Source: Mycolicibacterium gilvum
GTDB taxonomy: Bacteria > Actinomycetota > Actinomycetes > Mycobacteriales > Mycobacteriaceae
Direction of reading: 5' to 3'
Assembly (NCBI RefSeq): GCF_900454025.1
Contig: NZ_UGQM01000001.1
Span: 248,001 to 312,000, forward strand
Length of the DNA stretch: 64,000 nucleotides
In this document: positions 53,751 through 60,073 of the stretch, piece by piece
How the letters are laid out: every line of letters begins with the position of its first letter
Position numbering within the stretch: the stretch's first letter is position 1
Position numbers and translations under genes: made by a program
The notes under the pieces: generated by a model
What the model was told of the DNA's origin: nothing
Database searches by the model: none
Seen by the model: only the letters and a program-made list of their open reading frames with translations

Positions 53751-55490
53751 TCAGGGGCGCATCGTGTAGACGCCGTCGTAGCCCCTCACCTGTTCCCACA
53801 CCCGGTCGAATCGCCCGGAGTCCGGCTCGGGTTTGCGCACCGCCGACAGTGCCCAATCCTGTTGCGCACTCGTGGAGCCGGGTTTTCCGTGCAGCGCCAC
53901 CGCGTACGCGGAGAAATCGCGGACCGCGACGTCGAAGATCTGGTCGATCAGGTCACGGTCGAGCCCGGTGATCTCGGCCTGTTCGAGGATCAGCTGGCCG
54001 TACACCACAAGGCTGAACAGGTGCCCGACGACAAGGACGAAGTCGAGGTCGGACTGCTGATCGGCATCGGGCGCCGCGGCCGTCAGCAACTCCTTGAACG
54101 CCTGCACCTGTTCGTAGAAGCGGCCGACATTCGGAACGTCGCAGTGGCGCTCGTACACCGGCGCCCAGTCCGCGAACCGCACCTTCGACGCGCCGCGCGC
54201 GGGCCCCTGGGACCAGAAGAAGACATCGTCGGCCGGATCGTCACGGGTGCCGATCGGCGGGTACTCGGCGGGATTGAACATGTAGTTGGGCATGAACTTC
54301 AAGATCTGCGCGACGTTGACGTGGACAGTGCCCTCCAGTCGCGGCAGCGCCCCGATGAGCCGGGTCACCTGATAGAAGTAGGTGTCCTTCTCGAAACCTT
54401 TGGCGGCCAGCACATCCCACAGCAGTGTGACGACCTTTTCGCCCTCGGAGGTGACCTTCGACTTGGTCACCGGGTTGAACAGCAGGTACCGGCGGTCGTG
54501 CGGGCCCGCGCTGCGGAAGTAGTCGATCGCGCGGTCGCTGAACAGCTTCATCGCGATCAACCGGGCATACGCGTCGACGAACGTGGCCCGCACATGGGGG
54601 AAGTCGGTGACGGGGTTTCCGTACAGGATGCGATTGTTCGCATGGGTGATCGCCTCGTAGAACGCGTGCTCACACATGCCGATGGAGCCGCTGCACAGGT
54701 TGAATTTGCCGACGTTGACGGTGTTCAGCGCGGCCGAGAACGCGTCCTGGCCGGTGGCGAGGATGTCCTCCTCGTAGACCGGGTAGTCGCGCAGCGCGAA
54801 GTTGCTGACGAACATCTGGCCGTGCACGACGTTGCCGATCAACTCGTAGTCCGGGTGCCGGCTGTCGGCGACGAACCACACGTATCCGTCGGCGCCCTCC
54901 ACGTCGGTGCGGCGACCGAACACCGACACCATGCCGGCGACGTTGCCGTTGCCGATGTAGTACTTCTCGCCGGACGCGCGGAACACCACGGGATCGTCAG
55001 CTCCCGGCGAGGCCGGGGTGAGCAGCATGTCGGTGTTGTAGATGTCGGCGCCGTGCGCCCGCTCGGAGAGTCCGAACGCCATCACCTCACCGGCCTCGAG
55101 CTGCGCCGCCGCGCGTTCCCTGGCCTTGACGTTGTCGCTCTGCCAGATCGGGCCGAGGCCCAGGATGGTGACCTGCTCGGCGTACCAGTAGGACAGGCCG
55201 TAGAAGCCCAGGATCTCGCTCAGCACGGCGTTGCGGGCAGTGTCCCACCGCTTGTTCGGGTCGCCCTCGGCGAACTCCGACGGCGTCAGGAACGTCGCGA
55301 ACAACCGTTCCTTCTTGACGAACTCCAGGAAGTCGGCGACCCAGACGCCGTCGAGATCGTCGCGCAGCAGCCGTGCCTTGCCGCGCTGCTCGAACCAGTC
55401 GATGAGCGCGCGCAGCAGGCGCCGGGATTCGGGGTCCAGCCATGCGGGGTCGAAGTGGTTCGGGTTCAGCAGAAGTCCGCGGGCGGCCAT
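53751..55490 (-). CDS. Acyl-CoA dehydrogenase/oxidase-like protein
   Basis: A divergent member of the acyl-CoA dehydrogenase superfamily, 579 residues. The N-terminal helical domain (LLNPNHFDPAWLDPESRRLL) resembles the start seen in a separate mycobacterial ACAD group; flavin motif MAFGLSERAHGADIYNTDML replaces the canonical T-E-x-x-x-G-S with SERAHGADI; FNLCSGSIGMCEHAFYEAIT and EGTVHVNVAQILKFMPNYMF lie in the C-terminal domain. The usual catalytic Glu cannot be placed by eye. It is divergent from an Lrp/AsnC regulator gene (60 bases), the probable regulator. Confidence 0.82.
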   Translation of the reverse strand: MAARGLLLNPNHFDPAWLDPESRRLLRALIDWFEQRGKARLLRDDLDGVWVADFLEFVKKERLFATFLTPSEFAEGDPNKRWDTARNAVLSEILGFYGLSYWYAEQVTILGLGPIWQSDNVKARERAAAQLEAGEVMAFGLSERAHGADIYNTDMLLTPASPGADDPVVFRASGEKYYIGNGNVAGMVSVFGRRTDVEGADGYVWFVADSRHPDYELIGNVVHGQMFVSNFALRDYPVYEEDILATGQDAFSAALNTVNVGKFNLCSGSIGMCEHAFYEAITHANNRILYGNPVTDFPHVRATFVDAYARLIAMKLFSDRAIDYFRSAGPHDRRYLLFNPVTKSKVTSEGEKVVTLLWDVLAAKGFEKDTYFYQVTRLIGALPRLEGTVHVNVAQILKFMPNYMFNPAEYPPIGTRDDPADDVFFWSQGPARGASKVRFADWAPVYERHCDVPNVGRFYEQVQAFKELLTAAAPDADQQSDLDFVLVVGHLFSLVVYGQLILEQAEITGLDRDLIDQIFDVAVRDFSAYAVALHGKPGSTSAQQDWALSAVRKPEPDSGRFDRVWEQVRGYDGVYTMRP

Positions 55491-55550
55491 GTGTGAAATC
55501 TAGTCCCGCTTTCCGGCGCTGAACCGGTGTTCGATGCGATCATCGGCGGT

Positions 55551-56009
55551 ATGGGGGACGACGACCGGATCGCGCTGGATCGCACGGACGAGGCGATCCT
55601 GAAGGCGTTGCAGGACGACGGCCGGATCAGCACCGCCGATCTGGCCCGCGCGGTGTCGTTGTCGCCGAGTTCGACGGCCGACCGGGTCCGCCGCCTCGTC
55701 GACGCCGGTGTCATCACCGGCTACACCGCGACGGTCTCGGCGACGGCGCTCGGTTACACAATCACGGCGTTCGTCCGGCTGGCCTACCCGTCGGGGAACT
55801 ACAAGCCGCTGCACAGCCTTCTCGACGTGACGCCCGAGGTCGTCGAGGCCCACCATGTCACCGGCGACGACTGCTTCATTCTCAAAGTGCTGGCACGGTC
55901 GATGTCGGACCTGGAGCGGCTGACGGGCCGGCTCGCGACGCTGGGGGCCGTCACGACCAACGTCGTCTACTCGAGCCCTCTGACGCGGCGCAGGCTGGAG
56001 CCAGGTTAG
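55551..56009 (+). CDS. Lrp/AsnC-family transcriptional regulator
   Basis: A feast/famine regulator of about 152 residues from ATG at 55551 (an upstream in-frame start at 55527 is possible). DNA-binding part: LDRTDEAILKALQDDGRIST and ADLARAVSLSPSSTADRVRR, the standard winged helix; the C-terminal RAM domain follows (VVEAHHVTGDDCFILKVLAR). Lrp proteins sense amino acids or related small molecules and often control a divergent gene, here the acyl-CoA dehydrogenase-like gene. It converges on the cysteine-ladder gene with 11 bases between the stops. Confidence 0.9.
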   Translation: MGDDDRIALDRTDEAILKALQDDGRISTADLARAVSLSPSSTADRVRRLVDAGVITGYTATVSATALGYTITAFVRLAYPSGNYKPLHSLLDVTPEVVEAHHVTGDDCFILKVLARSMSDLERLTGRLATLGAVTTNVVYSSPLTRRRLEPG

Positions 56010-56020
56010 ATTCGCACCGG

Positions 56021-56464
56021 TCAGGCGGCGTGGACGCCGCGCAGCCCGACGGCGCCGCGCAGGCCCGAGCAGTCGATGCATCCGACACAGCCGATGCAGT
56101 CCTCACAGTCGATGCAGCCGACGCACGCCTTGCAGCTCGTGCACGCGATACAGCCCAGGCAGGCCAGGCATTTCGCGCACGCGAGCGACAGCACGACCAG
56201 GATCGACTTGGCGATCGCCGCGCTGCCGGCCGTCGCGATCGACTGTGCGACGGCAGCGCTACCCGCGGTGGCAATGGAATTGGCCACCGCGGCGCTCCCG
56301 GCGGTGGCGATCGAGCCGGCCACCCCCGCGCTGCCCGCGGTGGCTATCGACCCGGCGACGACCGCGCTGCCCTGTGTCGCCACCGATCCTGCGACGACGT
56401 AGCTGTCCTCGGTGCGCAACGACCGCACGACGGCACGTGAGGTGTCGTCGTCGCGTTCGTCCAT
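56021..56464 (-). CDS. Hexad-repeat protein with 13-cysteine ladder (CxxCxx...), end of sdh1 operon
   Basis: A 147-residue protein of unknown function. Residues 1-23 are polar. From 24 to ~131 the sequence follows a strict six-residue period, V/T-A-G-S-I/A-A (e.g. VAGSIATAGSAAVANSIATA): Ser occupies every position 27, 33 ... 93. In the same register cysteines take over at 96, 99, 102 ... 132, thirteen in all, each exactly three apart (CAKCLACLGCIACTSCKACV ...). The tail is SGLRGAVGLRGVHAA. ATG at 56464 has GGAAG upstream. Repeated units use different synonymous codons, so the pattern is kept at protein level. It follows sdhB by 40 bases on the same strand. No signal peptide. A beta-helix-like fold with stacked cysteines, perhaps binding metal or Fe-S, is speculation. 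Confidence 0.72.
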   Translation of the reverse strand: MDERDDDTSRAVVRSLRTEDSYVVAGSVATQGSAVVAGSIATAGSAGVAGSIATAGSAAVANSIATAGSAAVAQSIATAGSAAIAKSILVVLSLACAKCLACLGCIACTSCKACVGCIDCEDCIGCVGCIDCSGLRGAVGLRGVHAA

Positions 56465-56504
56465 GTCCGCTACTTCCGCTGCTGTCTTCTCTTCGCGCAA
56501 GCAC

Positions 56505-57257
56505 TCATCGCCGGAACAGCTTGTTGCCCAGCCACACCACCGGGTCGTACTTGCGGTCCGCGGCACGCTCTTTCATCGGGATCAGGGCGTTGTCGGTGAT
56601 CTTGATGTGTTCGGGGCAGACCTCGGTGCAGCACTTGGTGATGTTGCAGTAGCCGAGGCCGTTCTCCTCCTGCGCCTGCTCGGAACGGTGACCGTGTGTG
56701 TCGAGCGGGTGCATGTCCAACTCGGCCTGCCGCATCAGGAAGCGCGGGCCGGAGAACGCGAGCTTGTTCTCCTCGTGGTCACGCACCACGTGGCACACGT
56801 TCTGACACAGGAAGCACTCGATGCACTTGCGGAACTCCTGGGACCGGTTCACGTCCTCCTGCTGCATCCGGTACTCACCGGGCTGCAGGTCCTTCGGAGG
56901 CGTGAACGCCGGGATCTCCCTGGCCTTCTCGTAGTTGAACGACACGTCGGTCACCAGGTCGCGCATCACCGGGAACGTCCGCAGGGGAGTCACCGTGACG
57001 ACCTCGTCCTCGCCGAAGGTGGACATGCGCGTCATGCACAGCAGGCGCGGACGGCCGTTGATCTCGGCCGAACACGATCCGCACTTGCCGGCCTTGCAGT
57101 TCCACCGCACGGCCAGATCCGGCGTCTGGGTGGCCTGCAGCCGGTGGATGATGTCGAGCACGACCTCACCCTCGTTGACCTCGACGGTGAAATCCTTCAG
57201 TTCACCGCCGGTGTCGTCGCCGCGCCAGACCCGGAGCTTTGCGTTGTAGGCAGCCAT
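56505..57257 (-). CDS. sdhB: Succinate dehydrogenase 1 iron-sulfur subunit
   Basis: The electron-transfer subunit of succinate:quinone oxidoreductase (Rv0247c type), 250 residues, ATG at 57257 (AAYNAKLRVWRGDDTGGELK). The ORF is open upstream inside sdhA. N-terminal [2Fe-2S] domain: RWNCKAGKCGSCSAEINGRP with the fourth Cys in RLLCMTRM. C-terminal domain: CIECFLCQNVCHVV ([4Fe-4S]) and CNITKCCTEVCPEHIKI ([3Fe-4S] and last cluster ligands). It faces the cytoplasm on the membrane. Four bases separate it from the sdhA stop; the cysteine-ladder gene follows. Confidence 0.95.
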   Translation of the reverse strand: MAAYNAKLRVWRGDDTGGELKDFTVEVNEGEVVLDIIHRLQATQTPDLAVRWNCKAGKCGSCSAEINGRPRLLCMTRMSTFGEDEVVTVTPLRTFPVMRDLVTDVSFNYEKAREIPAFTPPKDLQPGEYRMQQEDVNRSQEFRKCIECFLCQNVCHVVRDHEENKLAFSGPRFLMRQAELDMHPLDTHGHRSEQAQEENGLGYCNITKCCTEVCPEHIKITDNALIPMKERAADRKYDPVVWLGNKLFRR

Positions 57258-57261
57258 CGAT

Positions 57262-59196
57262 TCAGCCCTTCTGTTCCGGGTGTTCGGCCAATTCCTCTGG
57301 CGTGTAGTACTTCTCCAATTCGGACAGCTCGAAGGTCGCGAGCAGATCCGGCCGCATCGGCGGCTGCGGTTCCACCTCGACCGAGACCTCCGGGATGATC
57401 GGATCGCCCGGTTCGTCGCCGCCGCCGACGGTCTTGCACACCAGCAGCTTGTTGCGCCAGTGCGAGTCCATCTTGGGGTAATCGTCGCGGGTGTGTCCGC
57501 CGCGACTCTCGGTGCGCTGCAACGCCGCCTTGGCCACGCACTCGCTGACGAGCAGCATATTGCGCATGTCGATGGCCAGGTGCCAGCCGGGGTTGAAGAT
57601 GCGGCCACCCTCGACGACGACGTTCTGGTAGCGCTTCTTGAGCTCGTCGATCTTGGCGAGAACCTCGTGCAGCTCATTCTCTTTGCGGATGATGCCGGCG
57701 AGGTCGTTCATCGACTCCTGCAGTTCCGCGTGCAGCGTGTACGGATTCTCGGCGTCGCCCTTGGGTTCGAACGGCAGCAGCGCCAGCTTCTCGGCCCGCT
57801 CCAGGGCCGCGTCGGTGACGGCGGGCCGGTTGTCGAGGGAGCGGACGTAGTCCGAGGCGCCGAGTCCGGCGCGGCGGCCGAACACCAGCAGATCCGACAG
57901 CGAGTTGCCGCCGAGGCGGTTGGAGCCGTGCATGCCGCCGGAGCATTCACCGGCGGCGAACAGGCCGGGTGTCGCGGCTCCGCCGGTGTCCGGGTCGACC
58001 TCGATGCCACCCATCACGTAGTGACAGGTCGGGCCGACCTCCATCTCGTCCTTGGTGATGTCGACCTCGGCCAACTCGATGAACTGGTGGTACATCGACG
58101 GCAGCCGGCGCTTGATCTCCTCGGCGGGCATCCTCGACGCGATGTCGAGATACACACCGCCGTGCGGGGTTCCGCGACCGTTCTTCACCTCTTCGTTGAT
58201 GGCGCGGGCCACCTCGTCGCGGGGGAGCAGGTCAGGGGTGCGCCGCGCCGAGTCGTTGTCCTTGAGCCACTGGTCGGCCTCTTCCTCGGACTCGGCGTAC
58301 TGGCCCTTGAACACGTCGGGGATGTAGTCGAACATGAAGCGCTTGCCCTCGGAGTTCTTCAGAACCCCGCCGTCGCCGCGCACGCCTTCGGTGACGAGGA
58401 TGCCCTTCACCGACAGCGGCCAGACCATCCCGGTCGGGTGGAACTGGATGAACTCCATGTTGATCAGGCCCGAGCCCGCCCGCAGCGCCAGCGCGTGCCC
58501 GTCGCCGGTGTACTCCCAGGAGTTCGACGAGACCTTGAACGACTTGCCGATGCCGCCGGTGGCCAGCACGATCGCGGGCGCCTCGAACAGCACGAACTTG
58601 CCGGTCTCGCGGTAGTAGCCGAACGCGCCGGCGACCCGGCCGTTCTCCTTGATGATCTCGGTGATCGAGCACTCGTGGAAGACGCGGATGCGGGCGTCGT
58701 AGTCGCCGAGCTCGCGCTTGTCCTCCTGCTGCAGTGACACGATCTTCTGCTGCAGGGTGCGGATGATCTCCAGGCCGGTGCGGTCGCCGACGTGGGCCAG
58801 CCGCGGATAGGTGTGTCCGCCGAAGTTGCGCTGGCTGATGCGGCCGTCCTTGGTGCGGTCGAACAGCGCGCCGTAGGTCTCCAGCTCCCAGACCCGGTCG
58901 GGCGCCTCCTGTGCGTGCAGTTCGGCCATCCGCCAGTTGTTCAGGAACTTGCCGCCGCGCATCGTGTCACCGAAGTGCACCTGCCAGGAGTCCTTGGTGT
59001 TGACGTTGCGCATCGCGGCGGCGCAGCCACCCTCGGCCATCACGGTGTGGGCCTTGCCGAACAGCGACTTGGTGACCACGGCGACCCGCAGGCCCCGTTC
59101 GCGGGCCTCGATCACCGCGCGCAGTCCGGCCCCGCCGGCACCGATCACGACGACGTCGTACTCGTGCCGCTCTAGCTGTGCTTCCTCCGAAGCCAT
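57262..59196 (-). CDS. sdhA: Succinate dehydrogenase 1 flavoprotein subunit
   Basis: The catalytic subunit that oxidises succinate to fumarate with covalently bound FAD (Rv0248c type), 644 residues from ATG at 59196 (a TTG one codon earlier is also possible). FAD-binding start YDVVVIGAGGAGLRAVIEAR; the SLFGKAHTVMAEGG stretch carries the His of flavin attachment; MEFIQFHPTGMVWPLSVKGI, the RGDGGVLKN region and GMHGSNRLGGNSLSDLLVFG close the active site. The C-terminal domain is the long helical arm. It is in the sdhC-sdhA-sdhB operon. Confidence 0.96.
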   Translation of the reverse strand: MASEEAQLERHEYDVVVIGAGGAGLRAVIEARERGLRVAVVTKSLFGKAHTVMAEGGCAAAMRNVNTKDSWQVHFGDTMRGGKFLNNWRMAELHAQEAPDRVWELETYGALFDRTKDGRISQRNFGGHTYPRLAHVGDRTGLEIIRTLQQKIVSLQQEDKRELGDYDARIRVFHECSITEIIKENGRVAGAFGYYRETGKFVLFEAPAIVLATGGIGKSFKVSSNSWEYTGDGHALALRAGSGLINMEFIQFHPTGMVWPLSVKGILVTEGVRGDGGVLKNSEGKRFMFDYIPDVFKGQYAESEEEADQWLKDNDSARRTPDLLPRDEVARAINEEVKNGRGTPHGGVYLDIASRMPAEEIKRRLPSMYHQFIELAEVDITKDEMEVGPTCHYVMGGIEVDPDTGGAATPGLFAAGECSGGMHGSNRLGGNSLSDLLVFGRRAGLGASDYVRSLDNRPAVTDAALERAEKLALLPFEPKGDAENPYTLHAELQESMNDLAGIIRKENELHEVLAKIDELKKRYQNVVVEGGRIFNPGWHLAIDMRNMLLVSECVAKAALQRTESRGGHTRDDYPKMDSHWRNKLLVCKTVGGGDEPGDPIIPEVSVEVEPQPPMRPDLLATFELSELEKYYTPEELAEHPEQKG

Positions 59197-59251
59197 CAAT
59201 CCTCGCTCATCTATCGGTATGTCAGTGAATGTGTCTGTGGGAAGGGCTGTC

Positions 59252-60073
59252 TCAGCCGACGAACCTCAGGTCGGAGAACCACCCGGCGGCCAGGGCCATC
59301 ACGTAGAAGTCGGTCAGCATCAGCGTGCCCAGGGTGATCCAGGCGTACTGCTTGTGCCGCACGTTGAGCTTGCTGATCTGAGTCCACATCCAGTAGCGGA
59401 CGGGGTGCTTGGAGAAGTGCTTGAGCCGGCCCCCGGCGACGTGCCGGCACGAGTGGCACGAAACCGTGTAGGTCCACAGCAGCACGACGTTGACGACGAG
59501 GATCAGGTTGCCCAGACCGAAGCCGAAACCGCCGTCGGGCTTGGAGAACGCGATGATCGCGTCATAGGTGTTGACCAGTGAGATGAGCACCGCGATGTAG
59601 AAGAAGTAGCGGTGGGTGTTCTGGATGATCAGCGGGAAGCGGGTCTCGCCGGTGTACTTCGCATGCGGTTCGGCGACGGCGCAGGCGGTCGGGGCCTGCC
59701 ACACCGTGCGGTAGTAGGCGCCGCGGTAGTAGTAGCAGGTCAACCGGAACAGCAGCAGGAAGGGCAGCGACACCGCCGCGTACGGCAGCCACCAGACGTC
59801 GGGCAGGAACTGGCCGAAGTGGCTGGCCTCGGGCACGCAGCCGGTGCTGACGCACGGCGAGTAGAACGGCGTCAGGTAGCCGTACTCGGCGACGTAGTAG
59901 TTGCTCTGCATGAACGCACGCACCGTCGCGTAGATGATGAACGTCGCGAAGCCCAGGTCGATGAGGATGGGCGACTTGAGCCAGTTGTCGGTCCGCAGCG
60001 TGCGCTGCCGGATCTGGGCTCGGCCAGGCGAGAAGACGCCGGTCGCTTTGCGGTCGGCGGTGGGTGCGCTCAC
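59252..60073 (-). CDS. sdhC: Succinate dehydrogenase 1 membrane anchor (Rv0249c homologue)
   Basis: A single large membrane subunit of 273 residues with five helices (e.g. PILIDLGFATFIIYATVRAF, PYAAVSLPFLLLFRLTCYYY, NLILVVNVVLLWTYTVSCHS), typical of SDH1 enzymes that have one anchor protein. It passes electrons from SdhB to menaquinone. Start GTG at 60073. Conserved histidines near the membrane edges (HRYFFYIAVL and CRHVAGG) may serve haem or quinone binding; haem content cannot be judged here. It precedes sdhA by 55 bases. Confidence 0.9.
   Translation of the reverse strand: MSAPTADRKATGVFSPGRAQIRQRTLRTDNWLKSPILIDLGFATFIIYATVRAFMQSNYYVAEYGYLTPFYSPCVSTGCVPEASHFGQFLPDVWWLPYAAVSLPFLLLFRLTCYYYRGAYYRTVWQAPTACAVAEPHAKYTGETRFPLIIQNTHRYFFYIAVLISLVNTYDAIIAFSKPDGGFGFGLGNLILVVNVVLLWTYTVSCHSCRHVAGGRLKHFSKHPVRYWMWTQISKLNVRHKQYAWITLGTLMLTDFYVMALAAGWFSDLRFVG

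Follow-up and report, generated by a model that had tools for sequence, protein, structure and literature searches.

A family of bacterial proteins joining a serine ladder to a cysteine ladder, with a probable beta-solenoid fold

The gene and its two ladders

The stretch of DNA analysed here (the window; 64,000 bp of Mycolicibacterium gilvum contig NZ_UGQM01000001.1) contains, downstream of sdhB in an sdh1 cluster, a gene for a 147 residue protein that carries two ladders of regularly spaced residues (Table 1). In the first, 15 Ser recur with a step of 6 from residue 9 to residue 93; in the second, 13 Cys follow at residues 96, 99 ... 132 with a uniform spacing of 3, continuing in the phase of the Ser. 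Shuffling the protein 20000 times produced at most 5 Cys in a step of 3 and 6 Ser in a step of 6, and across all six frames of the window the second-longest run of Cys at step 3 contains 3. An earlier note, made from the sequence alone, had described the 13 evenly spaced Cys in Ser phase, as translation and shuffles confirm; its Ser periodicity also stands, but extends over residues 9 to 93 rather than 27 to 93. Two further observations of that note hold, namely that the gene lies 40 nt past the sdhB stop (56505) on the same strand, as the coordinates confirm, and that the repeats vary synonymously (Ser codons TCG 8, AGC 7, TCA 1, TCC 1; Cys codons TGC 10, TGT 3). The N-terminus is charge-rich, and reading by eye revealed no obvious signal peptide.

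Table 1. Features of the locus, in window coordinates
Feature	Position	Strand	Basis or description
Gene, 147 aa plus stop	56021-56464	minus	ATG at 56464, stop 56021-56023; translation, substitution bias and dN/dS, homologues
Ser ladder, residues 9-93	56186-56440	minus	12-residue units such as S-[IV]-A-T-A-G-S-A-A-V-A-G, with S, T, S and V presumed to face inward
Cys ladder, residues 96-132	56069-56179	minus	13 Cys, every third residue; ~three 12-residue coils, four Cys each
Conserved C-terminal tail, residues 133-147	56024-56068	minus	Commonest family form SGLRNAVGLRDVHA
Possible ribosome-binding site GGAAG	56473-56477	minus	8 nt before ATG; suggested by reading of the sequence
sdhB of sdh1 cluster, upstream neighbour	56505-57257	minus	PF13085, PF13183
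sdhA, flavoprotein subunit	57262-59199	minus	PF00890, PF02910; start codon unsettled
Presumed SDH1 membrane anchor	59252-60073	minus	Position alone; no Pfam match
Convergent AsnC/Lrp-type regulator	55527-56009	plus	PF13412, PF13404, PF01037; end 11 nt from the gene's stop
Acyl-CoA dehydrogenase/oxidase-like gene, downstream	53751-55490	minus	PF00441

Distribution and selection of the family

The gene encodes a real protein family under selection, and is accessory, some actinobacteria having it and others not. A first search for relatives matched 26 of 61 genomes (the window's own genome counted), and a profile of 73 sequences matched 111 of the 248 genomes in the genus, with no stop within any match listed. 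Mycolicibacterium vanbaalenii is among the species with a copy (L061). Across the phylum 25 of 396 genomes match, mostly via the Ser repeats and with weak scores, and on GTDB contigs 184 of the 297 stretches with the pattern encode a relative. The best 80 of these 184 come mainly from Mycobacterium/Mycolicibacterium, Pseudonocardia and Actinomycetospora, the remainder of the 80 being from some actinobacterial metagenome-assembled genomes (MAGs) and one Acidimicrobiaceae MAG contig.

Substitutions at codon positions 1, 2 and 3 number 1858, 1300 and 5976, respectively (131 non-independent pairs at 5-20% divergence), and the ratio of nonsynonymous to synonymous substitution rates (dN/dS) ranged between 0.031 and 0.234 for 14 chosen pairs. 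Pairs of at least 80% identity provide 2410 comparisons at Cys, with the same codon in 1784, a TGC/TGT switch in 604 and another residue in 22, such that Cys is kept in 2388 comparisons. The third-position bias, the dN/dS ratios and the conservation of Cys despite codon switches bear out the protein-level selection that the earlier note had thought likely. A spurious open reading frame (ORF) was ruled out by the first two, together with the homologues in 111 genomes. On the opposite strand (56030-56440, plus) a long ORF runs across the gene, and open antisense frames are likewise found in many other loci; the substitution bias tracks the sense frame, not this ORF. One fragmented assembly (G032) holds two diverged copies on different contigs (L034, L036), and paralogues may exist.

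The family, putatively a solenoid with the core described below, is bacterial, uncharacterised and unnamed. Nothing in Pfam or NCBIfam reaches the cut-off for the window protein, and literature searches found no account describing the family, in keeping with the earlier note's statement that it knew of no characterised family with this pattern. The 73 members gave only low-complexity-type matches in the same two databases, e.g. weak ones to collagen-type models (8/73 in Pfam, best E 1e-4; 7/73 and 5/73 in NCBIfam); these, and the window protein's match to phrog_36982 (E 0.01), were treated as low-complexity matches. The PDB searched by sequence returned two weak matches only (E 0.14 and 0.43), a plasmid search returned none, and a protein search scored on residues 94-147 gave one candidate and no match. 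Only ~8000 candidates were scored in each of two protein searches, and hence the frequency with which databases annotate the gene is not readable from them. There were no Rfam matches in 55400-57400, and a scan for sigma-70 promoters and terminators found neither.

Repeat period and predicted fold

Midway between two Ser of the repeats lies a position that alternates between Thr and Val. Counting these two residues and ignoring all others, the position agrees between neighbouring hexads in 66 of 970 pairs, between hexads two apart in 824 of 879 and between hexads three apart in 73 of 785; because agreement peaks at two hexads, the repeat unit is 12 residues. The Cys ladder occupies both the Ser and the Thr/Val positions of this register. 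In the repeats 0.6% of the inward class is charged, a figure whose Ser half is partly so by construction, versus 2.7% and 6.5% of the other two classes; between the Cys, charged residues account for 11.6% and 24.8% of the two non-Cys classes, the zero charge of the Cys class being by construction. The outward positions of the repeats hold mainly small or aliphatic residues (A, V, I, G). In 95 distinct extracted members the number of Cys ranges from 10 to 17, the gaps between them are of length 3 in 1034 cases and of length 6 in 53 (others are rare), and in 84 members the first ladder Cys falls, modulo 6, on the dominant Ser phase, the two being offset by 3 in the other 11. Alignment of 73 members identifies C105, C108, C114, C117, C120, D122, C123, G125, C126, G128 and C129 as invariant in the ladder, as are T66 and S69 before it; in the tail G134, L135 and G140 are invariant, and R136 and R142 are conserved in at least 90%.

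On the strength of these patterns and of AlphaFold models, the protein probably folds as a beta-solenoid of 12-residue coils. The models are low in confidence; both rank 1ezg, an antifreeze protein (AFP) of the Tenebrio molitor type, as first structural match (over model residues 11-92 for the window protein), and both fit a right-handed 12-residue coil best. In one other member (L124), residues 71-110, mostly its Cys ladder, have block-mean pLDDT of 85-89. The earlier note had proposed a left-handed beta-helix with 18-residue turns, of which the beta-solenoid survives as probable while the handedness and turn length are not supported; its equation of eighteen hexads with six such turns is mere arithmetic, and the repeat period speaks against it. 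A left-handed hexapeptide beta-helix (LbH) does have in common with this family the six-residue periodicity and small residues, and the models are too low in confidence to exclude it, but it is quite improbable: the alternation has a period of 12, not 18, with the agreement of only 73/785 at 18 residues; 0 of 73 members match any hexapeptide-repeat Pfam family at E 0.01, nor does the window protein even at E 1; and a Cys spacing of three residues is at odds with the inward pattern of LbH proteins.

The likeness to Tenebrio-type AFPs (1ezg, 1l1i) lies in the 12-residue unit and in one inward residue per three, besides the first rank of 1ezg for both models; an excerpt of PMC8038014 places the core positions of the beetle proteins at 2, 5, 8 and 11 of 12. 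The window family nevertheless does not satisfy the TCTxSxNCxxAx consensus, and so is not a member; it has no such Thr array, its core would read S-T-S-V and then four Cys per coil, and it is bacterial with no export signal by eye. Kinship between the two is conjectural. If the fold is right, the protein is a small scaffold whose core chemistry can be read along one axis, the presumed core of a conserved family passing from hydroxyl to thiol side chains with its register intact, and bacteria use the geometry of beetle antifreeze proteins for another purpose. The Ser-ladder part alone is weakly matched at three places (G073:C24:254109-254318, G069:C1:275919-276128, G160:C1:4679818-4679997) whose genomes contain the full gene as well, and these are possibly solenoids of the same type lacking a thiol core.

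Candidate functions and genomic contexts

Overall, the best explanation is a solenoid of 12-residue coils with a thiol-lined core that binds soft metals, to which we assign a probability of roughly 0.38. The small protein, which we infer to be cytosolic, would form one thin parallel beta-solenoid with the geometry of the Tenebrio AFP, each third residue pointing inward. Its N-terminal coils would place Ser, Thr, Ser and Val in the core and serve as scaffold, and its last three coils would have Cys at all four inward positions, giving a thiol-lined core closed by the conserved tail. The stacked thiols could then capture ions of soft metals (Cu(I), Zn or Cd) and buffer them in the manner of a metallothionein. 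Metal binding by the thiol core, suggested by the Cys pattern, is itself a tentative proposal. Given a presumably reducing cytosol, soft-metal binding would be the likeliest use of the thiols and disulfides its main rival; a buffering role agrees better than a fixed cofactor site with the variation in Cys number and with the patchy distribution, and 10-17 Cys in particular fit poorly with a fixed iron-sulfur (Fe-S) site. Bacterial and mycobacterial metallothioneins are likewise small and Cys-rich with CxxC spacing, and presumably have the same chemistry, but the window family has a strictly periodic beta-solenoid pattern, and no curated metallothionein family is among the Pfam/NCBIfam matches. 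A more specific version, in which the C-terminal coils form a closed tube with four thiols per coil around metal ions or metal-sulfur units stacked in a straight line along its axis, about one per coil, is unlikely, and we found no significant match to such a design among solved structures. If true, it would constitute a genetically encoded metal thread in a beta-solenoid, perhaps common to the phage Cys-ladder proteins described below.

The main rival, somewhat doubtful in our estimation, is a structural solenoid in which disulfides link the Cys across coils or along them and the stiff rod acts by self-association or surface binding, with no metal. Four Cys per coil are twice the two core Cys per coil of the Tenebrio molitor AFP (TmAFP), in whose fold the turn positions lie far apart, and the window protein has no export signal by eye. 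The rank of 1ezg as best match of both models and the mostly small or aliphatic outward residues are in its favor, as is the precedent of TmAFP-type proteins, in which the core disulfides of each coil run between positions 2 and 8 (PMC8038014, in excerpt). A redox or sulfur buffer, whose thiol core would hold persulfide or polysulfide sulfur or sense oxidants without a fixed metal, seems improbable. It would accommodate the variable Cys number, and in 8 loci (L051, L053, L055, L056, L059, L060, L061, L070) a gene that looks rhodanese-like by eye is located two or three genes further downstream, near the acyl-CoA gene. All 8 loci are of sdh1 type, however, with the rhodanese-like gene next to the acyl-CoA gene there, and reading by eye picked out no further sulfur gene, no search for such neighbours having been made.

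A role near SDH1, which the earlier note had suggested in the form of an accessory carrying electrons or Fe-S clusters, is very improbable, notwithstanding the position 40 nt past sdhB on the same strand and the sdh1 context labelled in 21 of 95 distinct members. Linkage to sdhB is not conserved: sdhB1 is present in 244 of the 248 genus genomes, whereas the gene lies within ~300 bp of it in at least 17 of the 111 genomes that bear the gene (by-eye matching). Three genomes chosen because the genus search did not place the gene beside sdhB there (G078, G219, G108) have other sequence after sdhB with no match to the gene, which in G108 is present at another locus; of the three loci concerned (L178, L179, L180), L179 and L180 have no acyl-CoA gene match in the stretch either. 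On a tree of the 95 members a single change accounts for the 21 sdh1-context rows, as it does in 90% of the bootstrap replicates (branch support 92/79), although the tree has few columns and many weak forks and its context labels were assigned by loose rules; the gene seems to have joined the sdh1 cluster in a single event and to be subject to loss. In M. tuberculosis, Sdh1 comprises three genes, Rv0247c-Rv0249c, according to an excerpt of PMC4239112. Sdh1 is only one of several contexts, and elsewhere the gene neighbours a short-chain dehydrogenase together with a peptide-type ABC transporter, sits next to an acyl-CoA dehydrogenase and a TetR-type regulator, or occupies other places; clustering of neighbourhoods gave no constant partner gene, with neighbours named by eye from the calls of a simple script that misses or mis-assigns genes.

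Least probable is a precursor of a ribosomally synthesised and post-translationally modified peptide (RiPP), with Ser/Thr and Cys cyclised to azoles or thioethers: Cys also stand at every third position in heterocycloanthracin/sonorensin precursors (TIGR03601), one of four phage ladder proteins scores 14.8 bits to that model (cut-off 35) and one of 73 members weakly matches a thiocillin model (E 0.0051), but the window protein has no match to TIGR03601, and YcaO, MbnB/TglH-type and LanC-like genes, present in 14, 9 and 11 of 118 genus genomes, are all absent from its own genome, making maturation of the azole, lanthipeptide or MNIO classes unlikely. That search covered these three gene types and not the radical-SAM classes, and neighbours were read by eye.

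Ladders of the form xxC also occur in 45 phage-contig loci (L132-L176, e.g. L134, L137, L164, L171), with up to ~47 Cys behind several different N-terminal segments. All four of these proteins that were tested match PHROG_15341 and no Pfam family. The PHROG_15341 profile matches residues 95-134 of the window protein with E 1.7e-8 over 40 of 276 profile positions, which composition may explain, and the viral library gave a protein of Campylobacter virus IBB35 as its top match, at E 1.1e-3, just above the 0.001 line. Kinship of the two groups is conjectural. The phage proteins (e.g. of Campylobacter phage CP220) have similarly long ladders, often with D, G or N before Cys, but differ in their N-termini and ends and in having no visible Ser-hexad part. 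One of them was found in 17 Campylobacter phage records, 16 labelled hypothetical and one without annotation.
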